In this document: positions 5,225-59,275 of the stretch, piece after piece
How positions within the stretch are numbered: position 1 is the first letter of the stretch
Layout: every line of letters starts with the position of its first letter
Assembly: GCA_023666965.1 (NCBI GenBank)
Contig: JAMPAZ010000002.1
Location: forward strand, 61,223 to 125,222
Direction: 5' to 3'
DNA length: 64,000 nucleotides
DNA from: Muribaculum sp.
GTDB lineage: Bacteria > Bacteroidota > Bacteroidia > Bacteroidales > Muribaculaceae
Made by a program: the position numbers and the translations under genes
The notes under the pieces: generated by a model
What the model saw: only the letters and a program-made list of their open reading frames with translations
The model's database searches: none
Told to the model about the DNA's origin: nothing

Positions 5225-5237
5225 TTTTAGCCAACAA

Positions 5238-5656
5238 AGATGAGCCGAGCTATAAGCCGGGTTATGTCACGAAATCGATACGCATCGCTATCCGATGCAA
5301 TGTTCAGTTCATGGTCAGTCATTTATCTACGCCGGATGTCGCCATCCGGCTGACAACCTGCGACACTGCGGTCGCGGCCTTAGCAGTCTACCCCCCGACA
5401 ATGGACGAGCAATCCTTAAATGCCGGTATACTTGACCTTGCAGCCCATCAGGTGTGCGGCCGCCGTCATCACTGCCGGCGCCGGTGAGCTCTTACCTCAC
5501 CTTTTCACCCTTACCGCGATAAGCGGCGGTTATTTTCTGTCACACTTCTCAGCCGTTACCGACCGGTTCCCGTTAAGAACCATGGTGCTCTGCGCTGCCC
5601 GGACTTTCCTCTTGCCGCTTATACATCGGCAAGCGACTGACCGCTCTGCTCATCAT
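5238..5656 (-). ncRNA. rnpB: RNase P RNA, bacterial class A
   Basis: The catalytic RNA of RNase P, which matures tRNA 5' ends. Read on the minus strand it contains the universal CR I element GAGGAAAGTCCGGGC (complement of 5597-5611), GACAGAAAATAACCGCCGC, GGGGGGTAGACTGCTAAG and the 3' element AACCCGGCTTAT (complement of 5252-5263). The terminal P1 helix is visible: GATGAGC at the 5' end (complement of 5648-5654) pairs with GCTCATC at the 3' end (complement of 5239-5245). A TAnnTTTG promoter lies just upstream and a terminator just downstream. No protein-coding frame here is credible. Confidence 0.96.
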
Positions 5657-48776: not shown

Positions 48777-48784
48777 TACCTTTG
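48777..48784 (+). promoter_or_regulatory. Promoter of the cobalamin-capture operon
   Basis: TACCTTTG at 48777-48784 matches TAnnTTTG; the -33 element is weak. The start near 48791 coincides with the first bases of the cobalamin riboswitch. Confidence 0.65.
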
Positions 48785-48793
48785 CCGACGAAA

Positions 48794-48968
48794 ATGGTGC
48801 CGGGCGACGTATCTGCGTCAACCGACTTAATAGGGAATCAGGTGAAAGTCCTGAACAGTCCCGCTGCTGTGAGTTTCAATCAAAAAACACTCTCAACACC
48901 AACAAGCCACTGGACATTAGCTGTCCGGGAAGGCAATTGAGAGTGGAAACGAGTCAGAAGACCTGCCA
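48794..48968 (+). ncRNA. Cobalamin (B12) riboswitch
   Basis: The cobalamin aptamer core is clear: ATGGTGCCGG at the 5' end, TTAATAGGGAATCAGGTGAA, GTCCTGAACAGTCCCGCTGC, TGTGA, a peripheral domain with CCACTG and CCGGGAAGGC, then GAGTGGAAACGAGTCAGAAG and the B12 box ending in ACCTGCC at 48961-48967. It binds adenosyl- or related cobalamin and normally represses the downstream gene when B12 is plentiful. It begins at the predicted transcription start and lies 163 bases upstream of the TonB-dependent receptor start. Confidence 0.95.
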
Positions 48969-48971
48969 TTT

Positions 48972-49103
48972 TGCTATTTGTCAGCTACTTGCGAGGACAA
49001 GTCAAGGATGGCAGCCGGATGACGACGAACCACTGCATTGCACGGGTTCCCGGATTCCCCCTCCTAATACACGCCTTAAAACCCTCGCAGCTTGCAAATA
49101 GCA
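48972..49103 (+). promoter_or_regulatory. Possible expression platform of the B12 riboswitch
   Basis: TGCTATTTG (48972-48980), immediately after the aptamer, is perfectly complementary to CAAATAGCA (49095-49103), 28 bases before the receptor start codon. A small hairpin GCAG/CTGC follows at 49101-49116. There is no T tract, so control of translation initiation through long-range pairing is more likely than termination. Confidence 0.45.
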
Positions 49104-49130
49104 GATTATTAACTGCTAAAAAGCTATGCA

Positions 49131-51131
49131 ATGGAGCGAGGACTCTCATTCTTAATTACATTTGCTGTCTCAACCGGTACGCTGCTCTCCGCGCCGATTC
49201 CCGATATGCCCGATACCGTCACACTTAAAGAAGTGGTGGTCGAGGCCGTTAATCCCAACCGCGAGGTAATCCCCGTCCAACGCCTTGAAGGCGAAGAACT
49301 GACAAGGCTTAACAGCAACAGCGTAGCCGATGCTCTCCGCTACTTTTCCGGCGTGCAGATTAAGGACTATGGAGGCGTAGGCGGCATTAAAACCGTCAAC
49401 ATACGCTCTATGGGAACCAACCATACAGGTGTCATTTATGACGGAGCAGAACTGGGGAATGCCCAAAACGGTCAAATCGACCTCGGACAATTTTCGCTCG
49501 ACAATATAGAGGCAATCTCGCTTCACAACGGTCAAAAAAGCCAAATCCTGCAACCGGCACGCGACTTTGGCTCCGCCGGCACTATCTATCTCCGGACAAA
49601 GACCCCTCACTTTAGTCAAGGACGGACATACAATCTGCGCGGAACAGTGCGCTTTGGCTCGTTCGACCTCATCAACCCGTCGGCACTTCTCGAGCTGAAA
49701 CTTTCGGAAAGGGTAAATCTGTCACTAAGTACCGAACTTATTAATTCGAGCGGAAAGTATAAATTTCGCTACAGAAGAGTCAATCCGGCAGGAGAAATCG
49801 CCTACGACACCACCGCCGTAAGACAAAACGGCGACATAAACGCCACCCGCATGGAGCTCAATCTCAACGGTATGCTCGACAACGGAGAATGGCATTTTAA
49901 AGCATACAACTATAATTCCGAGCGCGGAGTGCCGGGAGCAATAGTCAATAATGTGTGGCGTCGCGGTGAGCGTATATGGGATACAAACTCCTTCCTTCAA
50001 GCCAATTTCACCAAACACTCCGGAAAGTACTCGACTTTAAACACAGCTAAATACTCTTTTTACCGAACCCACTACGTCAATAACGACGACAAGCAGATTA
50101 AAATCGACAATCTATACCGCCAACGCGAATTTTATCTGTCGTCGGCACACGAAATCAGCCCGTCCGGATGGTGCCACCTTTCGGCAAGCTACGACTTCTT
50201 GTGGAACACGCTTAATGCCGACGTTTACGGGTTTGCCAAGCCCGATCGCTATACCAATCTTGTGTCTATGGCCGGGGCTTTTGACTGGCCCCGGATAAAG
50301 ATTCAAGCAAGCGGCCTGATGACATTTGTCCACGATGAACTTAAAGGGCAACAGTCGCCTGCCGACAAACATGTGTTCACACCCGCCGTCTACGCATCCT
50401 TCTTTCCTCTTCGCTCATCCTCAGCATTGTCTCTTCGGGCATTTTACAAACGCTCCTACCGAATGCCGACATTTAACGACCTTTACTATGCCGACATGGG
50501 AAACTCCAAACTTAACCCGGAGCGCGTGGCCCAGTACAATGTCGGCGTGCTCTTTGACCGAGTCTCGCACGGCTTCATCTCAGCCATGAGGATTAGCGTA
50601 GATGCCTATTACAACAAAGTCCACGACAAGATAGTGGCATACCCTAAAGGACAGCAATTCAGATGGACAATGCTGAACCTCGGCGTAGTCGACATCAGAG
50701 GCATCGATGTGTCGGCACTGGTCACAGTCAATCCGGCCAACGACCTCTACATAACAGCGAGAGGCCAATACACCTACCAACGTGCTATTGACATAACGAA
50801 TCCCGCCGACAACTATTATCGCGATCAGATACCCTATATTCCGCACCACTCCGGCTCGGCAGTGGTCAATTTAGTCTGGAAAGACTGGAACCTTAACTAC
50901 AGCTATATATACGTAGGAGAGCGATATAATCAGCAAGAGAATATCCGCTACAACTACACTCAGCCGTGGTACACCAGCGACATATCTGCAAGCCGAAGCA
51001 TCAAAGTCGGAGAAGTCCGGCTAAGACTTTTGGCCGAGGTAAACAATCTGTTCAGCCAGGACTACGACGTCATTCTGAACTATCCGATGCCCAAACGCAA
51101 TTACCGCTTCACAATAACTATCGAACTTTAA
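49131..51131 (+). CDS. btuB: TonB-dependent cobalamin receptor (BtuB-like)
   Basis: 666 residues with a signal peptide (LSFLITFAVSTGTLLSA). A TonB-box-like strand TVTLKEVVVEA is followed by the plug domain (NSVADALRYFSGVQIKDYGG, VNIRSMGTNHTGVIYDGAEL) and a beta-barrel with a FkRSYRMPTFNDLYYADMG-type strand, ending RNYRFTITIEL. The size fits BtuB rather than SusC. Position directly under a cobalamin riboswitch makes B12 or a related corrinoid the likely substrate. The next gene, a BtuG-like lipoprotein, starts 3 bases after the stop. Confidence 0.92.
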   Translation: MERGLSFLITFAVSTGTLLSAPIPDMPDTVTLKEVVVEAVNPNREVIPVQRLEGEELTRLNSNSVADALRYFSGVQIKDYGGVGGIKTVNIRSMGTNHTGVIYDGAELGNAQNGQIDLGQFSLDNIEAISLHNGQKSQILQPARDFGSAGTIYLRTKTPHFSQGRTYNLRGTVRFGSFDLINPSALLELKLSERVNLSLSTELINSSGKYKFRYRRVNPAGEIAYDTTAVRQNGDINATRMELNLNGMLDNGEWHFKAYNYNSERGVPGAIVNNVWRRGERIWDTNSFLQANFTKHSGKYSTLNTAKYSFYRTHYVNNDDKQIKIDNLYRQREFYLSSAHEISPSGWCHLSASYDFLWNTLNADVYGFAKPDRYTNLVSMAGAFDWPRIKIQASGLMTFVHDELKGQQSPADKHVFTPAVYASFFPLRSSSALSLRAFYKRSYRMPTFNDLYYADMGNSKLNPERVAQYNVGVLFDRVSHGFISAMRISVDAYYNKVHDKIVAYPKGQQFRWTMLNLGVVDIRGIDVSALVTVNPANDLYITARGQYTYQRAIDITNPADNYYRDQIPYIPHHSGSAVVNLVWKDWNLNYSYIYVGERYNQQENIRYNYTQPWYTSDISASRSIKVGEVRLRLLAEVNNLFSQDYDVILNYPMPKRNYRFTITIEL

Positions 51132-51134
51132 TCC

Positions 51135-52295
51135 ATGAGACTTATATATATATATCTTACATTAACTTTTCTGCCAATTCTGTTGTGCATCACGAGCTGT
51201 CGAGATGACGAACTCGTGGTGCCGACGGAATATGATATTATCCCTGAGTCGCCCGCCGAGGAGACAAAGATCAGAGGGTTTTACCTCGTTAATGAAGGAA
51301 ATATGGGGTCAAACAAGTGTACCCTCGACTATTTCGACTACTTCACCGGACTTTACGCACGCAACTTCTATGCCGAGCGCAATCCCAACGTCGTAAAGGA
51401 GCTTGGCGATGTAGGCAACGACATAGGCATTTATGGGTCAAAACTATACGTGGTGGTCAATTGCTCACATAAAGTTGAGGTTATGGATGCCCGCTCAGGA
51501 GTTCGGATTGGTCAAATCGACATTCCCAACTGCCGCTACGTCCGCTTCTATCGCGGTAAAGCCTACGTCAGTTCCTATGTAGGGCCGGTACTGATCGATC
51601 CGGATGCACCCAAAGGAGCCGTGTATGAAGTCGACACGCTTTCTCTTTCGATTACCGGAAAGGTGTCTGTAGGTTATCAGCCCGAAGAAATGGAAATAGT
51701 CGACGACTATATGTATGTGGCAAATTCCGGAGGTTACCGCGCCCCAAACTACGACAATACAGTTTCAGTCATCCAAATGATTGATTTTAAACAAGTCCAA
51801 CAGATTCCTGTCGGGATAAATCTGCACCGATTGAAAAAAGACCGTTACGGCAAGCTTTGGGTGAGTTCGCGAGGCGACTACATGTCAAGGCCGTCCCGCC
51901 TTCACGTACTTGAAAAAAAACGTGGATATAACCAGATGATAGTCTCAGACACCATCCCCGTCGCTTGTTCCAATATGGCCATCCATGGCGACTCGCTCTA
52001 CTTCTACGCTACGGAATGGAACAATTTCACAGCATCGAACACCATATCATACGGCATCATCGACATAAATACGCGCCGGATGGTGTCGACCAACTTCATC
52101 ACCGACGGCACGGAGAAGGAGATAACTGTACCATACGGCATTGCCATCCATCCCGAGACCGGCGACATATTTGTTACTGATGCTAAAAACTACGTATCGT
52201 CAGGAACGCTCTATTGCTTCGACAAGAACGGACATAAGAAATGGAGCGTACGTACCGGCGACATTCCTGCCCACATAACATTCCTGCCAAGATGA
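51135..52295 (+). CDS. btuG: BtuG-like surface beta-propeller lipoprotein (DUF5074/YncE type)
   Basis: 386 residues. A lipobox (LLCITSCRDDE, Cys22) marks a lipoprotein. The acidic stretch after it could act as a surface export signal. The rest is a seven-bladed YncE-like propeller: KIRGFYLVNEGNMGSNKCTL at the start, GKVSVGYQPEEMEIVDDYMY, VPYGIAIHPETGDIFVTDAK and DIPAHITFLP at the end. BtuG proteins of Bacteroides bind B12 with very high affinity and hand it to BtuB. The gene is 3 bases after btuB and overlaps the next start (ATGA). Confidence 0.88.
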   Translation: MRLIYIYLTLTFLPILLCITSCRDDELVVPTEYDIIPESPAEETKIRGFYLVNEGNMGSNKCTLDYFDYFTGLYARNFYAERNPNVVKELGDVGNDIGIYGSKLYVVVNCSHKVEVMDARSGVRIGQIDIPNCRYVRFYRGKAYVSSYVGPVLIDPDAPKGAVYEVDTLSLSITGKVSVGYQPEEMEIVDDYMYVANSGGYRAPNYDNTVSVIQMIDFKQVQQIPVGINLHRLKKDRYGKLWVSSRGDYMSRPSRLHVLEKKRGYNQMIVSDTIPVACSNMAIHGDSLYFYATEWNNFTASNTISYGIIDINTRRMVSTNFITDGTEKEITVPYGIAIHPETGDIFVTDAKNYVSSGTLYCFDKNGHKKWSVRTGDIPAHITFLPR

Positions 52296-53512
52296 AAGTC
52301 CTAAAAATATATCTCCCGATTATTGCAATCGTCTCATGCCTGTCGGCGTGTGACGGCAACGACATCCCGATGGTCAATCTCGGGATTGACGACGTGTACT
52401 ACATCCCTCGTATGCATAAGCTGTTTCTCTCGCCGTCTTTGACAGGCGAAGCTTATCGATGGGAAGTGACTGCGTCCGACGGAAAAGTAATTGACTTATC
52501 CACAGATAAAGACTATATCTTTCTGGCAGAGGGCGAGGGAACCTATTCGGTGACTTTCGATATAATCGACACCTCTACACCGTTTCATTTCACCACAACC
52601 GTCAATGTAATGCATGAGGAGGTAGAGTACAGTCCATACATATCGACGGTCTACGAATATTGTCCTGCCCCGGGACAATTCATAAATGAAATGCCCAAAT
52701 ATGAGGATGGCGACACTTATGCCGACATTCTTCAAAAGGCGGAAGAATCTATCTCCGGTACCAACGACATTCTCATCTCGTTAGGCGGATTCGGTGGATA
52801 TGTCACATTCGGATTTGACCACACGGTGATAAACCGACCCGGAGAGGCCGACTTCCGAATCTGGGGAAACTGCTTTTACGAGCTGACCGACCCGTCGAGA
52901 AAGGGGGGATCGGCAGAGCCTGGCATAGTCATGGTGTCGTACGACACCAACGGCAATGGACTGCCTGACGATGAATGGTATGAACTGGCAGGCAGTGATT
53001 ACTCTAATCCATCCACGCGACACGGCTATTCGATAACTTATCACGCACCTGATCCCAATAGGGAAATCGTCGGAGACGAAGACGGCAATCTGAACGACCT
53101 GCACTACATAAAATGGATTGACTCGTCGGGAGCTACCGGATATATGCCGAAAAACATTTTCCACAGTCAGGACTATTACCCTAAATGGGTCGAAGAAAAG
53201 TCCATCACTCTACAGGGAACGTGCCTGCCCGAAAATGGCATCGACGTGAGCGGATACGGCAGCTACTACATTCTATATTCCTTCGGATGGGGATACGTTG
53301 ACAATCATCCAAACGACTACGCCGACCTTAACTCATTCAATATAGACCATGCCGTCGACAGCCGGGGCAATCATGTCGATCTCCCGGGAGCCGACTTCAT
53401 ACGCGTTTATACCGGAGTTAACCAATACTGCGGATGGCTCGGCGAAACTTCGACTGAACTGTGTCGGGCACAAGATCTGCATATCGACCTTCTCGCGCCA
53501 TTTATACCGTAA
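52292..53512 (+). CDS. PKD-like surface lipoprotein of the B12 locus
   Basis: 406 residues from the ATG at 52292, chosen because it overlaps the btuG stop and opens a lipobox (VSCLSACDGND, Cys20). Residues about 25-125 form a PKD-like beta-sandwich (YRWEVTASDGKVIDL, GTYSVTFDIIDTSTPFHFTT). The larger C-terminal part is a beta-rich domain with LGGFGGYVTFGFDHTV, DTNGNGLPDDEWYELAGSDY (a possible calcium-type D-x-N-x-D loop) and YSFGWGYVDNHPNDYADL. Lipoproteins of this type recur in Bacteroides B12-uptake loci. A role as an accessory corrinoid binder or a platform for BtuBG is inferred. Confidence 0.8.
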   Translation: MKVLKIYLPIIAIVSCLSACDGNDIPMVNLGIDDVYYIPRMHKLFLSPSLTGEAYRWEVTASDGKVIDLSTDKDYIFLAEGEGTYSVTFDIIDTSTPFHFTTTVNVMHEEVEYSPYISTVYEYCPAPGQFINEMPKYEDGDTYADILQKAEESISGTNDILISLGGFGGYVTFGFDHTVINRPGEADFRIWGNCFYELTDPSRKGGSAEPGIVMVSYDTNGNGLPDDEWYELAGSDYSNPSTRHGYSITYHAPDPNREIVGDEDGNLNDLHYIKWIDSSGATGYMPKNIFHSQDYYPKWVEEKSITLQGTCLPENGIDVSGYGSYYILYSFGWGYVDNHPNDYADLNSFNIDHAVDSRGNHVDLPGADFIRVYTGVNQYCGWLGETSTELCRAQDLHIDLLAPFIP

Positions 53513-53528
53513 TTTAAAATCATTGTAT

Positions 53529-54494
53529 ATGCTTAAGTTAACGACTTTTCTCCTATTGGCAATAATCCCGGCGGTCGCCCGGCCTCATTGCATCGACTTT
53601 GAAAAAATTAAACACTGGACCGGAACCGGACCTAACCGCGCGGCCTTAGTGTTGCAGTTCCCATCCGATGTCGATCCATACGCTTACGTCTGGGGGTATC
53701 GATGGGACGACGGCATCTCGCCGACCGGCGAAGAGATGGTAAAGGCCATTTGCCGCAATTCAACCGAACTTGCCGTGTTGACACAAAACACCGGCATGTA
53801 CGGGTCGACACTCTGCGGCGTTGGCTTCGGCGACGCTCAGACTTTACTCGCAGACCTGTATTTCGACTTTGAAATGGCTAAGACCTATGAATGGATTAAC
53901 TTTGACTACTACAATGGCAACCCCTTTTTTGGACAAAACGGCGCACCCGGCGACAACGCCCCTCAGATAGCCCGCCAAGCCATCGAAGCCGCATATCAGA
54001 CACACGTGGTACTTCATCCGTTTGACTACACGACGTACGGCTATCCGGCATACGATTACGACTGTTGGAAACTCACAGAAGACAGTGCGGGAGGAATTTG
54101 GATCTCAGGTTGGTACACCGGCTACTGGAGCTACTGGCTCTCAAGCTCTTCAACCGACGAATGGACTTACAGCGGAACCGGATTTAGCGGACGAAAGCTT
54201 ACGGATGGGGCAATCGATGCCTGGAGCTACACTCCGTTTGACGAACCGGGTGTCGGAGGCTTCGGCGAAGGAAATCCGCCTACCGACAATCCGGATTTAA
54301 TCAGCTACCGCCCTGTAGCCACTTCAGGAATCGACGCCATAACATACGATGTCGAATCCGGTCTGTCACAAGTTTATAGCATTTCCGGAATAAAAGTCGC
54401 GACTTTTTCGTCGGAAGGACAAATTCCGCCGTTAAAACCGGGCATTTACCTCATCCGCACAGGCAAGCAAACCCGAAAGATTATTATCCGATAA
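53529..54494 (+). CDS. Secreted protein with W-G-Y domain and type IX-like C-terminal domain
   Basis: 321 residues from the ATG at 53529 (a signal peptide follows: MLKLTTFLLLAIIPAVA; no lipobox). Residues about 30-175 form a domain with AALVLQFPSDVDPYAYVWGY, GYGFGD-like and EWINFDYYNGNPFFGQNG segments that I cannot assign. The pattern V/I-WGY-K/R and a following IGF/GVGF turn recurs in the N-terminus of the next protein. The C-terminus (about 265-321) reads VYSISGIKVATFSSEG, LKPGIYLIRTGKQTRKIIIR, which resembles type IX secretion sorting domains. It is the fourth protein-coding gene of the B12-controlled series, 16 bases after the PKD-like lipoprotein. Confidence 0.75.
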   Translation: MLKLTTFLLLAIIPAVARPHCIDFEKIKHWTGTGPNRAALVLQFPSDVDPYAYVWGYRWDDGISPTGEEMVKAICRNSTELAVLTQNTGMYGSTLCGVGFGDAQTLLADLYFDFEMAKTYEWINFDYYNGNPFFGQNGAPGDNAPQIARQAIEAAYQTHVVLHPFDYTTYGYPAYDYDCWKLTEDSAGGIWISGWYTGYWSYWLSSSSTDEWTYSGTGFSGRKLTDGAIDAWSYTPFDEPGVGGFGEGNPPTDNPDLISYRPVATSGIDAITYDVESGLSQVYSISGIKVATFSSEGQIPPLKPGIYLIRTGKQTRKIIIR

Positions 54495-54533
54495 TACATA
54501 CTCTAATTTTATTAACCAATCTACATTTTTTAC

Positions 54534-57500
54534 ATGAAAGTTTTTACTCTAATAGGAGCCTTGGCTCTCGGCACTTTTGCCGCATCGGCGCAAGCCACAG
54601 TCGATGCATCTAAAGTGCAGTACTCTGTCGGAGAGGGAGAAAATATTCTTCCGGTAATGATCAGATTTAACGAAGGAGTAGTCTATTCCGGCGAAACACG
54701 CCAACACCTCGACAATATCGTGTGGGGCTACAAGTATGGAGCATCGCTTCCGACGCCAGTCGCCGTGTTGAACGCAATCGCCGCCGCTGACCCGCGCTTA
54801 GAGGTTACGGCAGAAAGTAATAATGTGACGTCAATCGGCTTCGACATCGACGGCGACGGCACAATCTCTACTCCGAAAGACAACTTGGCCGCTTCAACCG
54901 ATTCGAAAGCATGGAACGCATCGGTAGAAAACGACGTGCTGACATTCTCATACGGGACACCGCAAGCCGGACCGATGCCTTACGTGTTCTACGTTCCCCA
55001 ACCCAACGTGTCAGGCATCTACATGCCCGAAACCATTTATCTCAGCCTTTCGGACACAGAAAAGTATCTGCCGTTCATGTTGCAGAAAGAGATTGCGGCG
55101 GCACGCTTTTCTACTCCCACATTCTCAATGTACTCCGACGAGGAATTGACCACAACGGACAGAACCATCATAAGCGGCATAGCGGGGCAGGCAAACTACA
55201 ATGCCGGACTCATCACATATACCGGGACGGCTGTCGGCGAGATTTATCTTAAGGCATCGTGTATGACCTATAACCCCTACCGCGCCGACTATTCCACTAC
55301 GGCAAAGGTTGTCGTGGCCGAACCCCGCGTTCCGGTAACAGCCATATACTTCCCCCAGGAAACTCTGTCAATGGGTCTTAAGCAGACTGTTACCGACAAT
55401 AAAGTAGTCATCGAACCCGAAAACGCCACTTTCACGAAACTGACGCTCACTTCGTCGGATACAAAAATAGTCACTATTGCTTCCGCCACCGGAAACATCA
55501 CATCGACCGCAACTCCCGGTTCGGCCACTTTAACGGCCCAGTACACCTACAAGCCGGAGTTGACTTCTATCTGCGAAGTAACCACCGAACTGAAAAATCC
55601 GGTCACCTCGCTCACAATCATGGGACTTGACCCGGAAGCTACGGAAATCAATCTATATCCAAAGCATCTCATCGGACTACGTGCTGAGATTGAGCCTGCC
55701 AACGCCGACATAAAGGATGTAAATGTTGAGTTTATATTGGCTGACGACGTTGAGACCGACCAAGCCGGACGGCCGTTGAACGCCGAGGGCAAGCCCGTAA
55801 TGTCAATGTATAAAGTAAACTATTGGGATGAAAATAATAGCCGTATACAGTTCCAGGAACTTTCCGGCCACTATCCCGGCTCAGGACTTGCAAAAGTAAA
55901 AATCTCCACTACCGACGGGACTAATCTGACAAAAGAATATACCGTAAACGTTATCGAGCCTGACCGCACTCCTCTCGACGGAGGATATGAGGACGGAACA
56001 ATCATTCTTAATGAGGAATGGTACGGCCATACAAACGGTGGCATGAACTACTTGACTGCCGACCGCGATATCATCTATCAGGCTTACGAACGTGAAAATC
56101 CGTTCCAGTCATTCGGCTGCACGTCGCAGTTCGCAACCATCTGGGGAGGCAAGTTGCTCGTATCTTCAAAACAGCCGGCCGATGGAGGCGATCCTCTGCC
56201 CGGCGGAGGTGAGTTGGTCATCGTTGACGCTAAGACTCTTAAGCGTACCGGCTCGATCATGGAACTTAAATACGGCGACGAATCTCGCGCCGACGGACGA
56301 GCCATCGCAGGAGCCGGATTGAACAAGATTTATCAAGGTTCGACCAACGGCATCTATATCATTGACATCGAAAATGCCGCTATAATAGGCAAAGTAGGCG
56401 GATTAGAGGGCGACGGCGAACTCTATGAAGGACAGGTGGGCGACATGATTAACGCCGGCCGCTACGTGTTCGGAATCAAGCAGCAGACCGGAGTATTCAT
56501 TATCGACACCACTATCGACGCCATCGTCAAAGTCATACCGGAAACAGGCATCCAAGGAGTAACCCAGTCGGCCGACGGAAATGTATGGTATGCCACTACT
56601 ACCGAAAGTCAAACAAACTTCGTATGTCTGAATCCTACCACTTTTGAGGAGCTTAAGCGCGTGATACTTCCTGCCGCAAACGGCACGGTAGCCTGTTCTT
56701 GGGGGGCATGGCGCTCGACAAACCTGTTTGCGTCTAAGAATGAAAATGTACTGTGGTTCTTGACAGGAGCCGGAGGAATTACCGGAGGCGGTTCGTCAAT
56801 CTATAAATGGAACACCGATGAATCGCTCGAAAACATCACTCCCTTCTTCCAGCTGAATGGTCTCGAAGGCAGCAACAGCCGTACTTCACAAGGCTTCTAC
56901 GCCACCCAAGGCTATGACAGCCGTTCAAACACCTTGATAGTATTCACTGTCGACGGAGGTTCGAGCGGACACTATCGCTACGCCTGGACACACTTTGTCA
57001 ATGGCGATACAGGAGAAATCGAAAAGACCATCGCTCTTGAACCATACTACTGGTTCCAATCTATGCCCGTATTCCCGGACAAATACCCCGCCACATTTGC
57101 TGAAGAATTGCTCGCAGGAATCACTCTCGACATTGCCGACGAGCCCAAAGCCATCGACTTAAGCGAACTCGTGACCGATAAAGATAATATCGACAGCAAT
57201 ATCATGTTCAGCCTTGCATCTGCGCAGGATGCCGACAGCCCGATAGAGACTGTTCTTGACGGAAAGACTCTGACAATCACTCCTAAAGCCACCGGAACGG
57301 CAAAAGTAAAAGTTTCGGCACTCAGCAACGGACGTTTGACCGAGGAAGAACTCACCGTCAACGTTTCCGACATGTCGGGAATTGATGCCGTCCTGACCGG
57401 AACAGTATCAGTCGTAGTGAAAGGCCACAATCTTGAAATTCGCGGTGCCGAAGGCCGCACGATCGTCATCTACAACACTATGGGCCAAATCGTCGGCAAC

Positions 57501-57602
57501 GCATTTGCCGATAGCCAAGTTTGCACTGCAAATGTCGGACTTACCTCGGGCATATATGTTGTAAAATGCGGACAGCAGTCATTTAAAGTAATCGTAAAAT
57601 AA
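54534..57602 (+). CDS. Large W-G-Y / Ig-like / BtuG-type propeller fusion with C-terminal sorting domain
   Basis: 1022 residues with a signal peptide (LIGALALGTFAASAQA; no lipobox). Domains in order: a W-G-Y domain (about 22-190, HLDNIVWGYKYGASLPTPVA) and linker; Ig-like BIG-type domains (about 265-475, RVPVTAIYFPQETLSMGLKQ, ATGNITSTATPGSATLTAQY). A DUF5074/BtuG-type propeller follows (about 480-855, GTIILNEEWYGHTNGGMNYL, FGCTSQFATIWGGKLLVSSK). The protein ends with a short Ig-like segment and a type IX-like C-terminal domain (about 945-1022, IVIYNTMGQIVGNAFA, LTSGIYVVKCGQQSFKVIVK). It is probably a long surface protein presenting a corrinoid-binding propeller. The upstream gap is 39 bases; a terminator follows. 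Confidence 0.82.
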   Translation: MKVFTLIGALALGTFAASAQATVDASKVQYSVGEGENILPVMIRFNEGVVYSGETRQHLDNIVWGYKYGASLPTPVAVLNAIAAADPRLEVTAESNNVTSIGFDIDGDGTISTPKDNLAASTDSKAWNASVENDVLTFSYGTPQAGPMPYVFYVPQPNVSGIYMPETIYLSLSDTEKYLPFMLQKEIAAARFSTPTFSMYSDEELTTTDRTIISGIAGQANYNAGLITYTGTAVGEIYLKASCMTYNPYRADYSTTAKVVVAEPRVPVTAIYFPQETLSMGLKQTVTDNKVVIEPENATFTKLTLTSSDTKIVTIASATGNITSTATPGSATLTAQYTYKPELTSICEVTTELKNPVTSLTIMGLDPEATEINLYPKHLIGLRAEIEPANADIKDVNVEFILADDVETDQAGRPLNAEGKPVMSMYKVNYWDENNSRIQFQELSGHYPGSGLAKVKISTTDGTNLTKEYTVNVIEPDRTPLDGGYEDGTIILNEEWYGHTNGGMNYLTADRDIIYQAYERENPFQSFGCTSQFATIWGGKLLVSSKQPADGGDPLPGGGELVIVDAKTLKRTGSIMELKYGDESRADGRAIAGAGLNKIYQGSTNGIYIIDIENAAIIGKVGGLEGDGELYEGQVGDMINAGRYVFGIKQQTGVFIIDTTIDAIVKVIPETGIQGVTQSADGNVWYATTTESQTNFVCLNPTTFEELKRVILPAANGTVACSWGAWRSTNLFASKNENVLWFLTGAGGITGGGSSIYKWNTDESLENITPFFQLNGLEGSNSRTSQGFYATQGYDSRSNTLIVFTVDGGSSGHYRYAWTHFVNGDTGEIEKTIALEPYYWFQSMPVFPDKYPATFAEELLAGITLDIADEPKAIDLSELVTDKDNIDSNIMFSLASAQDADSPIETVLDGKTLTITPKATGTAKVKVSALSNGRLTEEELTVNVSDMSGIDAVLTGTVSVVVKGHNLEIRGAEGRTIVIYNTMGQIVGNAFADSQVCTANVGLTSGIYVVKCGQQSFKVIVK

Positions 57603-57615
57603 TTTCATAGCAGAC

Positions 57616-57662
57616 AAGGGCTGTGTCATAAGTCGCCGCATCGGTGAAATGACACAGCCTTT
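57616..57662 (+). terminator. Terminator between the two secreted propeller genes
   Basis: GGCTGTGTCAT (57619-57629) pairs perfectly with ATGACACAGCC (57649-57659), flanked by AA and TTTG. The loop holds a GC-rich CGCCGCATCGGTG. The stem resembles that at 7936-8005. It should reduce expression of the last propeller gene. Confidence 0.75.
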
Positions 57663-57676
57663 GTTCATTAAATCAT

Positions 57677-59137
57677 ATGCTTTTAAACAGACTATACTCT
57701 TTCCTCGGAGCCTCGATGCTTACGTTAGCACAAGCCGTGGCATCCGACATTGACTATACAAAAGGGGTCTTTTTTGTCAACGAAGACTGGTATGGACATC
57801 AAAACTCCACTATCAATTATCTTCTGCCTGACGCTACCGACGGACAGTATTGGCACTATCGCGTTTTCCAATCTGAAAATCCCGGATATGAGCTTGGCTG
57901 CACCAATCAATTTGGAGATATCTGGAACGGCAGATTTTATCTAATTGCCAAACAAGAAAAAGATCCGGGAGCGTCGATCACCGGCGGCCGAATCACCGTA
58001 GCCGACGCTAAGACGATGAAAGTACTTCATCAATCCCCTATAATCGATCCCTCGGGAGCGCAGTGCGACGGTCGCGGATTTCTCGGTATTGACGAGCATA
58101 AAGGCTACATTTCGTCAAGCAACGGAATATGGATATTCAATCTCGACACATACGCGATAGAAGGGCAAGTGACCGGCACTGCAAATCCGAATGCTGGCGA
58201 CGGTCGACCTAATACCGACCCCACAGGCTCGCTCTATCACGGACAATCCGGCTCGATGGTCATATCATCCGGACGCGTATTCGCCGCCCATCAGCAAGAA
58301 GGGCTCCTTGTAATCGACCCGGAAACGGACAAAGTCACCGACAAAATAAGCATGGACATCGTAGCAAGCGGAGCAGGAATAGGTTCGGTAGTCAAGTCGA
58401 AAGACGGGACTATCTGGCTGTCGGTAGCAAAAAATGTGCAGGGTACCGGCACGACACTGCCCTACATAGTCAAAGTAGACCCCCAATCTCTCTCGACAAA
58501 AATAGTTCCCATACCGGAAGGCATGTATCCGCCGTCAAACTCATGGTATGCCTGGACCCCGGATGCTTTTTGCGCTTCATCTCAGACAAACTCGCTTTAC
58601 TGGAAAGGTGGAGAAAACAGATGGTTTTCCGGAACCAAAATTTTTAAATACGACATCGACGGAAACGAACTCACACAAATAATCGACCTCGACGACGACG
58701 GTGAAAATTGGAAACTCTACGGATGCTCTATGAGACTGCATCCGATTACCGATGAAATTTACATGTCGCTGTACCACGATTTCGGGACTCCGACCTATAT
58801 TACGCGACGCTACACCTGCAATGGCGTAAAAATCAAGGACTACGACATGATAATGAACTACTGGTTCCCCTCTCTGCCCGTATTTCCGCAATCCGGCGGA
58901 CAATCAAGCGGTATCGCATACACGGCACTCCCGAAGGTGGACATCTACGTATCAGGCCAGTCGTTGATAGTGACCGGCGCCGAAGGTTCGGAAGTGGACA
59001 TCTACACCACCGACGGACGCAAAGTCGATGCCTTTAAGCCATGGGCCGAAACGTGCGCTTTGCAGCCGGCACTGCAACCCGGCATCTATATAGCCAAGGC
59101 AGGAAGCACAGTTAAAAAGTTCCGTTGGAATTTTTAA
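57677..59137 (+). CDS. Secreted BtuG-type propeller with C-terminal sorting domain
   Basis: 486 residues with a signal peptide (FLGASMLTLAQAVAS; no lipobox). A DUF5074/BtuG-type propeller fills about 27-420: GVFFVNEDWYGHQNSTINYL, GCTNQFGDIWNGRFYLIAKQ, LYHGQSGSMVISSGRVFAAH and YWFPSLPVFPQSGG. These closely parallel segments of the preceding 1022-residue protein (NEEWYGH, GCTSQFATIWGG, YYWFQSMPVFP), so the two propellers are related. The C-terminal 60 residues (VDIYTTDGRKVDAF, LQPGIYIAKAGSTVKKFRWNF) look like a sorting domain. It follows a terminator by 15 bases and so may be expressed at a lower level. Confidence 0.82.
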   Translation: MLLNRLYSFLGASMLTLAQAVASDIDYTKGVFFVNEDWYGHQNSTINYLLPDATDGQYWHYRVFQSENPGYELGCTNQFGDIWNGRFYLIAKQEKDPGASITGGRITVADAKTMKVLHQSPIIDPSGAQCDGRGFLGIDEHKGYISSSNGIWIFNLDTYAIEGQVTGTANPNAGDGRPNTDPTGSLYHGQSGSMVISSGRVFAAHQQEGLLVIDPETDKVTDKISMDIVASGAGIGSVVKSKDGTIWLSVAKNVQGTGTTLPYIVKVDPQSLSTKIVPIPEGMYPPSNSWYAWTPDAFCASSQTNSLYWKGGENRWFSGTKIFKYDIDGNELTQIIDLDDDGENWKLYGCSMRLHPITDEIYMSLYHDFGTPTYITRRYTCNGVKIKDYDMIMNYWFPSLPVFPQSGGQSSGIAYTALPKVDIYVSGQSLIVTGAEGSEVDIYTTDGRKVDAFKPWAETCALQPALQPGIYIAKAGSTVKKFRWNF

Positions 59138-59158: not shown

Positions 59159-59189
59159 TTGCGCGAATTACAAGAAAGCCGTAACTTTG
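59159..59189 (+). promoter_or_regulatory. Promoter of metK
   Basis: TTG at 59159-59161, 20 bases, perfect TAACTTTG at 59182-59189. The start near 59196 places the SAM-II-like element at the very 5' end of the transcript. Confidence 0.85.
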
Positions 59190-59213
59190 CACTAACAAAC
59201 GACAATGGCCTCA

Positions 59214-59275
59214 TTGGGTGGAAAAATTTGGCTGCTTGCAACCACCATAAAAAATGCTAAAACCGCTGACTTGCC
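59214..59275 (+). ncRNA. SAM-II-type riboswitch upstream of metK
   Basis: GGTGG (59217-59221) pairs with CCACC (59242-59246) to form P1. Its 20-base loop contains the U-tract AATTTGG and the CTTGCAA segment of SAM-II RNAs. Downstream lie ATAAAAAAT and the conserved GCTAAAA at 59256-59262, whose GC can pair back with GC of TTGC in the loop, giving the H-type pseudoknot. The order P1-loop-UUGCA-P1'-A-rich-GCUAAA is that of SAM-II, known from alphaproteobacteria and some Bacteroidetes. Repression of metK, which makes SAM, by SAM is the expected logic. Confidence 0.75.

Follow-up and report, generated by a model that had tools for sequence, protein, structure and literature searches.

A cobalamin riboswitch locus of a Muribaculum species encodes BtuB, BtuG, BtuH and three further proteins with type IX secretion-like tails

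Why would a vitamin B12 (cobalamin) locus that encodes a BtuB-like receptor and its partners carry behind them three more proteins that look secreted, two of which contain propellers of their own? Such a locus lies at positions 48,777 to 59,137 of the 64,000-nucleotide stretch of DNA that we analyzed (the window; Muribaculum sp., contig JAMPAZ010000002.1), and we refer to the three additional proteins as p4, p5, and p6. A preliminary description of the locus had seen in it an unusual expansion, with three BtuG-type propellers beside one receptor, and had offered a relay or several corrinoid specificities as the explanation. The reading we arrived at, in which our confidence is evenly balanced, is that the genes form a B12-repressed two-tier cobamide uptake operon, where BtuB, BtuG, and BtuH (BtuBGH) would be supplemented by a capture layer, p4–p6, exported by the type IX secretion system (T9SS).

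The layout of the locus is that of a B12 uptake operon. Rfam placed a cobalamin riboswitch aptamer (RF00174; 106.1 bits, cut-off 31.5, E 1.5e-25) at 48778..48984 on the + strand, one of 2 cobalamin riboswitches found in this genome, which is 83% complete. Downstream, six + strand genes run to position 59137 in the order btuB-btuG-btuH-p4-p5-p6; btuG and btuH overlap by 4 nucleotides (nt), and 16, 39, and 74 nt precede p4, p5, and p6, respectively. At the 5' edge of the riboswitch, a pattern search found the promoter −7-like box TACCTTTG (48777..48784, +). TAnnTTTG is the −7 promoter consensus of Bacteroidota, and the window contains 55 matches to this type of pattern versus 35.1 expected; a single match is weak evidence. 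Directly past p6, there is a SAM-II riboswitch (59212-59270; a TAnnTTTG box lies at 59182) and, after it, a gene that we take to be metK, and the end of the operon was therefore placed after p6.

The first three genes belong to known families. The receptor gene btuB (49131..51131, +, 666 amino acids (aa)) adjoins btuG and encodes a BtuB-like TonB-dependent receptor with a Plug domain (E 1.2e-14) whose best NCBIfam model was TIGR01779, the TonB B12 receptor (E 2.3e-28; 99.1 bits versus a cut-off of 599.7). The product of btuG (51135..52295, +, 386 aa) is a YncE/DUF5074 propeller (DUF5074 E 2.5e-17) with the lipobox CITSC, and its matches to the structures 8blw (E 5.2e-39) and 3dsm (E 4.3e-13), together with this lipobox, identify it as a BtuG. 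The entry names of 8blw and 7biz in the PDB are generic; we take the former to be BtuG1/BtuGH and the latter to be BtuH2. Structure 3dsm is BtuG2 (PMC6143338). The third gene, btuH (52292..53512, +, 406 aa), most likely starts at 52292, the start that yields the lipobox LSAC. Its product had been described as a PKD-like lipoprotein; it does have a PKD-like N terminus, although the PKD_3 match is below cut-off (18.6 versus 26.3 bits), and its C-terminal 280 aa form a BtuH domain, matching residues 393-662 of 8blw at E 9e-77 and 7biz at E 2.5e-47, so we assign the protein to BtuH, a family known to bind B12. With btuB and btuG adjoining under a cobalamin riboswitch, this is a BtuBG-type Bacteroidota B12 uptake locus.

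Are the propellers of p5 and p6 additional copies of BtuG? The p5 gene (54534..57602, +, 1022 aa) encodes a p4-type domain, a linker, a DUF5074 propeller (aa 487-848; 55992..57077, +), and a C-terminal tail, and the p6 gene (57677..59137, +, 486 aa) encodes a signal peptide without lipobox, a DUF5074 propeller (aa 29-404), and a T9SS-like tail. Both propellers exceeded the gathering cut-off of DUF5074 (PF16819; 27.2) with 308 bits for p5 (E 1.1e-91) and 400.6 bits for p6 (E 7.5e-120), stronger matches than that of the window BtuG. The preliminary description was thus right, by Rfam and Pfam matches, that a B12 riboswitch, a BtuB-like receptor, a BtuG, and two further DUF5074 propellers share one locus, and the failure to match DUF5074 or BtuG that it had named as speaking against it was not seen. 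Against the BtuG structures, neither p5 nor p6 gave a match at E 1 in a PDB sequence search, where 9s6c was the sole credible solved relative of the two (p6 E 1.3e-12). Their kinship with BtuG appeared when family profiles were compared by hhalign: p6 matched the BtuG family profile at E 2.4e-14 over 294 columns, and the p5 propeller family profile matched that of BtuG at E 6.6e-13 and that of p6 at E 7.8e-70. By these comparisons, the p5 and p6 propellers are homologues of BtuG at the profile level.

In a tree of 104 propellers, the 41 BtuG rows lay on one side of a branch with a support of 98, and the window p5 and p6 lay on the other. The p5 and p6 rows did not separate cleanly from each other (3 and 2 changes, respectively), and the program warned of long branches meeting; because the group labels derive from the same profiles, we treat this tree as a consistency check. 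Within the BtuG/YncE propellers (3DSM, 8BLW), the window BtuG is a member, whereas p5 and p6 share its Pfam family but differ from BtuG in falling outside its group, in carrying another loop (mostly NE[ED]W[FY]GH), and in having no lipobox. As judged from the sequences, the locus comprises one BtuG plus two DUF5074 propellers of another kind: three DUF5074 propellers are present, as had been claimed, but not three BtuGs. One BtuG per BtuB still holds because p5 and p6 group apart from BtuG. We rejected three BtuG copies arising through recent duplication on the grounds that p5 and p6 match no BtuG structure, are related to BtuG only at the level of profiles, and fall outside the BtuG group.

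The loop in question is where BtuG2 holds its ligand; its Asn54-Thr64 loop and another loop grip B12 like pliers (PMC10404256). We checked the BtuG2 numbering on a 366-aa Bacteroides protein, in which Trp194, Tyr239, Trp272, Tyr316, and Tyr335 stand as in that publication. Loop N53-T63 of the window BtuG aligned with N54-T64 of a Bacteroides BtuG2, and N53-E54-G55-N56 was common to 21/21 BtuG sequences compared. In p6, the segment aligned to this B12-holding loop is NEDWYGHQNST (aa 35-45; 57779..57811, +), nine of whose 11 residues were invariant in 59 sequences, window included. Among p5 propellers, 29/31 had NE at the loop position, and in 20 of these 29 the motif extended to NE[ED]W[FY]GH; this count, taken from the propeller tree set, applies to p5 and p6 only. 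The p6 protein is strongly conserved as a whole, with 89 invariant columns across 58 homologues that are 53-77% identical to the window protein. A conserved but different loop in p5 and p6 fits a conserved ligand, without telling which.

Two features go beyond the preliminary description, namely that T9SS-like tails replace lipid anchors on p4–p6 and that p4 carries a riboswitch-linked domain. The first was quantified in named loci, from a named-genome scan of the best 80 of 165 p6 relatives. A loose lipobox pattern was found in 59/59 BtuG, 50/64 BtuH, 3/45 p4, 0/61 p5, and 3/79 p6 proteins, and a stricter pattern in 58/59, 38/64, 1/45, 0/61, and 3/79, respectively. A C-terminal tail motif, which was written after inspection of such tails, was present in 41/45 p4, 58/61 p5, and 74/79 p6 proteins versus 0/59 BtuG and 1/63 BtuH. 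The tail of the window p5 (57390..57596, +) is DUF6383/T9SS type A-like, with 31.5 bits to DUF6383 (cut-off 23.7). When the genome was scanned with the T9SS tail model TIGR04183, p5 scored 25.6, over the cut-off of 23, and p4 (21.9) and p6 (16.7) were under it; from the 27 loci described below, 10 distant p4-type proteins were scanned, and 8 passed the cut-off. The machinery is encoded in the same genome, where SprA (2724.5 bits), PorU (481.2 bits), and PorV (416.4 bits) all scored over cut-off. SprA was found in 237/247 family genomes and 0/14 controls, and no control genome exceeded the cut-off in the SprA, PorU, and PorV searches. By these signals, BtuG and BtuH, which neighbor BtuB, carry lipid anchors, and p4–p6 look T9SS-exported.

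The second feature concerns p4 (53529..54494, +, 321 aa), which is not a propeller; it has a signal peptide without lipobox, a p4-type (DUF4430-like) domain, and a T9SS-like tail, and its start is most likely 53529 rather than 53349, judging from the signal peptide. The core of the domain (p4 aa 22-93; 53592..53807, +) scored 80.5 bits against a core profile of which p4's own family is a part, and a second copy lies at the p5 N terminus (aa 23-119; 54600..54890, +; E 1.7e-9). With the p4-type profile run over window open reading frames of ≥60 aa, the next one after p4 and p5 came at E 0.11. The window p4 had no Pfam match and no credible PDB match. Among 36 aligned p4 sequences, the Pfam match seen most often at E 1, in 7 sequences, was a weak secretion tail (best E 0.0058); DUF4430 appeared in none of the 36 at E 1, and p4 itself did not reach its Pfam cut-off. 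Two distant p4-type proteins from one genus, out of 10 scanned, did match DUF4430 (PF14478) over cut-off (E 7e-7 and 2.4e-20), whereas p4, which has a long insertion, does not. Comparing profiles with hhalign, the p4 family matched 12 distant p4-type domains at E 1e-16, these domains matched the repeats within the two proteins that match DUF4430 at E 1e-19 (profile against profile), and the p4 family profile matched the DUF4430-like repeats directly at E 2.7e-11. Through these profile intermediates, p4 is a remote relative of DUF4430 in its N-terminal part. One passage of PMC4350170 places DUF4430 in the C terminus of animal transcobalamins (TCN proteins). A search of the PDB with the DUF4430-like repeats returned no transcobalamin chain at E 10. 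Two further identities for p4 were tried and rejected by hhalign, each with a single sequence on one side: DUF4465/BtuJ, where the p4 family against a Bacteroides finegoldii DUF4465 protein gave a probability of 0.6 of 100, and BtuL, where the comparison with a 696-aa B. finegoldii lipoprotein placed like BtuL gave 0.2 of 100.

The association of this domain with B12 regulation was assessed by a search free of gene context, in which the p4-type family profile matched 28/295 Bacteroidales genomes at E 1e-6. The resulting 27 p4-type loci are every one outside the window's own genome and form a sample picked by the domain alone. Rfam detected a cobalamin riboswitch in 24/27; we report Rfam counts because a simple regular expression missed 6/14 checked Rfam-positive loci. 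The riboswitch was directly 5' of the domain gene, making it the first gene, in 19/27 (a p4-type open frame starting ≤250 nt past the riboswitch 3' end; in locus L197, the p4-type frame, taken stop to stop, overlaps its riboswitch), and a btuB/G/H-type gene lay within the fetched stretch in 22/27. Locus L200 had btuB and btuG with no riboswitch found, and L197, L206, and L208 had a riboswitch with no btu gene found in the fetched stretch. Three loci, L193, L195, and L196, have two riboswitches, one of them directly before p4-type genes; these extra internal cobalamin riboswitches (L193 7792-7991, L195 7436-7624, L196 10515-10712) precede p4-type/propeller genes, which may be controlled apart from btuB. 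In L193 (8112-11447) and L195 (7692-11429), the p4-type domain following a cobalamin riboswitch is fused to an immunoglobulin (Ig)-like domain and BspA-type leucine-rich repeats, and L192 and L194 contain large p4-type homologues with Big_2 arrays and a DUF5074 domain.

Is the window's arrangement an oddity, as its description as an expanded locus implied? It recurs. Matches to p6 were found in 112/247 family genomes at E 1e-10, a count that takes in weaker propellers standing alone. Of 49 named loci found via p6 with ≥9.7 kb upstream, all 49 encoded BtuG and BtuH, 46 BtuB, 45 p4, and 44 a p5-type propeller; two of the three BtuB-less loci, L079 and L148, start at or inside btuG. Among 53 loci starting with btuB, at least three propeller domains were present in 46 and two in 7, two being the minimum since every one of these loci was found through p6. 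A p4-type domain and a propeller shared one protein in 24/53, and one such protein had two propellers. Rfam found the riboswitch in all 7 family loci first examined, as well as in L044, L048, and L211; it found none in L043, whose contig starts inside btuB. In five BtuB-BtuGH regions of other Bacteroidales, no gene was recognized by the p4, p5, or p6 profiles. Separately, in the B12 loci L060, L061, L064, and L065, a p6-like gene is immediately followed by a long frame (1324-1445 aa) that carries a distant BtuH domain; that of L060 ends at the contig end.

The window's own genome has a second B12 locus (L235, C11:946000-965900), and all four of its over-cut-off DUF5074 matches fall inside these two riboswitch loci. 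In L235, the second cobalamin riboswitch (94.4 bits) is followed by a DUF4465 protein and then by BtuH-, BtuG-, BtuB-, and BtuF-type genes. No lipobox was seen by eye in this DUF4465 protein, whose T9SS-like tail scored 20.8 bits when the protein was taken alone and 23.5, over cut-off, in the genome scan. On these features, the second locus repeats the pattern of the first. The jelly-roll B12 binders of the DUF4465/BtuJ type are thus represented in this genome, whereas p4 is not recognizably DUF4465. Outside the B12 loci, the window contains a class A RNase P RNA gene (5237-5652, −; 225 bits).

Known systems share the frame of this locus. In Bacteroides thetaiotaomicron, cobamide operons likewise have cobalamin riboswitches, BtuB, BtuG, and BtuH, and further surface proteins (PMC12751083, PMC8941943, PMC6143338). 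The newly named accessory proteins of that species, except BtuX, are predicted lipoproteins, in contrast to the window p4–p6 with their T9SS-like tails and no lipobox, and p4 resembles neither a DUF4465/BtuJ-type protein nor the B. finegoldii lipoprotein in the position of BtuL. In B. finegoldii (NZ_OY725936), a DUF5074 propeller directly follows BtuB and a BtuG-BtuH fusion; this 436-aa protein combines PKD and DUF5074, has a lipobox by eye, and is 21.6% identical to p6 over 78%. By this BtuB-BtuGH-DUF5074 cluster, an extra propeller occurs outside the family too. The record in question (NZ_OY725936.1; L156 and L157) is labeled a plasmid and carries chromosome-like genes alongside the cluster, and the label may be wrong. 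For one cluster, PMC13398666 gives 40% co-location of DUF4465 with propellers of PF16819.

How might the six proteins work together? In the two-tier operon that we propose, low B12 would release the riboswitch, and expression would be B12-dependent through p6. The inner tier would consist of BtuB, BtuG as its lid, and BtuH as a lipid-anchored binder, placed on the outer membrane; this BtuBGH part of the mechanism follows from the family assignments. The outer tier would be p4 (p4-type domain), p5 (p4-type domain plus propeller), and p6 (propeller), which would cross the outer membrane via the T9SS and bind cobamides either at the cell surface or in its immediate surroundings. Captured cobamide would then pass to BtuH/BtuG and enter through BtuB. 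The propeller proteins may act as a relay, as suggested before. Between p5 and p6, there is a strong hairpin (57613..57665, +; −35.3 kcal/mol, z −8.2), whose arms have no second occurrence anywhere in the window's own genome. The p5-p6 gap in 56 relatives has a median of −1 nt, and the 11 relatives in which it exceeds 40 nt have hairpins there too (−23 to −42 kcal/mol, with no shuffle control). This hairpin is a possible attenuator or processing signal and may reduce or separate p6 expression.

Several observations weigh against this proposal. With respect to regulation, the hairpin could stop transcription ahead of p6, 3/27 p4-type loci have no riboswitch, and in two of one genus with 260-aa p4-type proteins (L209 and L214), neither a riboswitch nor a btu gene was found. 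With respect to linkage, p6-type matches are patchy, reaching 112/247 family genomes but only 4/14 of the same genus, and L141 has 919 bases upstream of its BtuG frame without a BtuB match. With respect to export, TIGR04183 on the window proteins alone gave 18.4 bits for p4, 19.6 for p5, and 14.8 for p6, all under the cut-off of 23, and in the genome scan at E 1 it also matched 13/14 control genomes, over cut-off in 1. With respect to ligand, the p6 loop is unlike that of BtuG except for N-E and T, and it loosens in distant relatives, only N35, E36, and G40 being invariant in a wider 16-sequence set; 9s6c, the one solved structure credibly related to p6, gave no further lead, and its sequence had no match at E 1e-30 across 393 Bacteroidales genomes (where an empty answer shows nothing); and the profile link between p4 and DUF4430 spans the N-terminal 60-70 residues, the C-terminal half being judged by eye. 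Finally, B. thetaiotaomicron BtuL and BtuK2, both encoded in B12 operons, showed no cobalamin binding (PMC12751083), and operon linkage is therefore not proof of B12 binding.

The lack of cobalamin binding by BtuL and BtuK2 also speaks for a rival reading, in which p4–p6 recognize something other than free cobamide. They could bind a cobamide carrier, such as host intrinsic factor, haptocorrin, bacterial carriers, or vesicles, or they could scaffold BtuBGH assemblies. Protein binding is a common role of propellers and Ig-like linkers, and the BspA-type leucine-rich repeats plus Ig of L193 and L195 and the Big_2 arrays plus DUF5074 of L192 and L194 would suit such a role. The strong conservation of p6 (58 homologues, 89 invariant columns), by contrast, reads as favoring a small conserved ligand, and riboswitch loci containing p4-type genes come from many Bacteroidales families, none of which was tied to a host in this analysis. 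We regard this carrier or scaffold role as unlikely, while keeping it as the most serious of the alternatives.

A second alternative is that the three propellers have different corrinoid specificities. The difference between p5/p6 and BtuG at the loop with which BtuG2 holds B12 could be taken that way, but BtuG2 leaves the lower ligand, which distinguishes cobamides, exposed and does not contact it, and is described as a versatile corrinoid binder (PMC10404256); moreover, a single BtuB serves the locus, and nothing we found points to specificity. This suggestion of the preliminary description gained no support, and we consider it very improbable. That btuB, btuG, and btuH are the sole B12 genes and p4–p6 co-transcribed passengers with another secreted function is hardly credible: the hairpin ahead of p6 and the absence of a p6-type match at E 1e-10 from 10/14 same-genus genomes would be in keeping with it, but the linkage is kept across genera and families, the p4-type gene directly follows a riboswitch in 19/27 loci, and L193, L195, and L196 place second riboswitches directly before p4-type genes.

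Returning to the two-tier operon, parts of it have precedents in the literature, which describes additional lipoproteins encoded at B12 loci, BtuH and BtuJ themselves, and DUF4465 co-locating with PF16819 propellers (PMC8941943, PMC12751083, PMC13398666). What is new here is the proposed outer tier with its T9SS-like tails, the p4-type domain and its linkage to riboswitches, and the remote DUF4430 kinship. In a literature search by title, nothing joined T9SS with cobalamin and BtuB or Muribaculaceae with B12 capture; by title, DUF4430 did not appear in bacterial B12 work, and DUF5074 was mentioned in a vesicle proteome.

Muribaculaceae abound in the guts of mice and other animals, and our sequence comparisons suggest that p4–p6 form an outer layer gathering scarce B12. 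We offer a wider claim tentatively, namely that Muribaculaceae and other Bacteroidales may secrete, via the T9SS, B12-repressed cobamide-capture proteins built from a new p4-type corrinoid-binding domain, remotely akin to the transcobalamin C terminus, and from BtuG-like DUF5074 propellers, which would act in the manner of siderophores or haemophores and feed BtuBGH. The p4-type domain is a candidate B12-associated domain, not covered by Pfam, that occurs at riboswitches across Bacteroidales, and it is a possible bacterial relative of the human B12-carrier domain. If our reading is right, competition for B12 would involve exported proteins, beyond the anchored ones.

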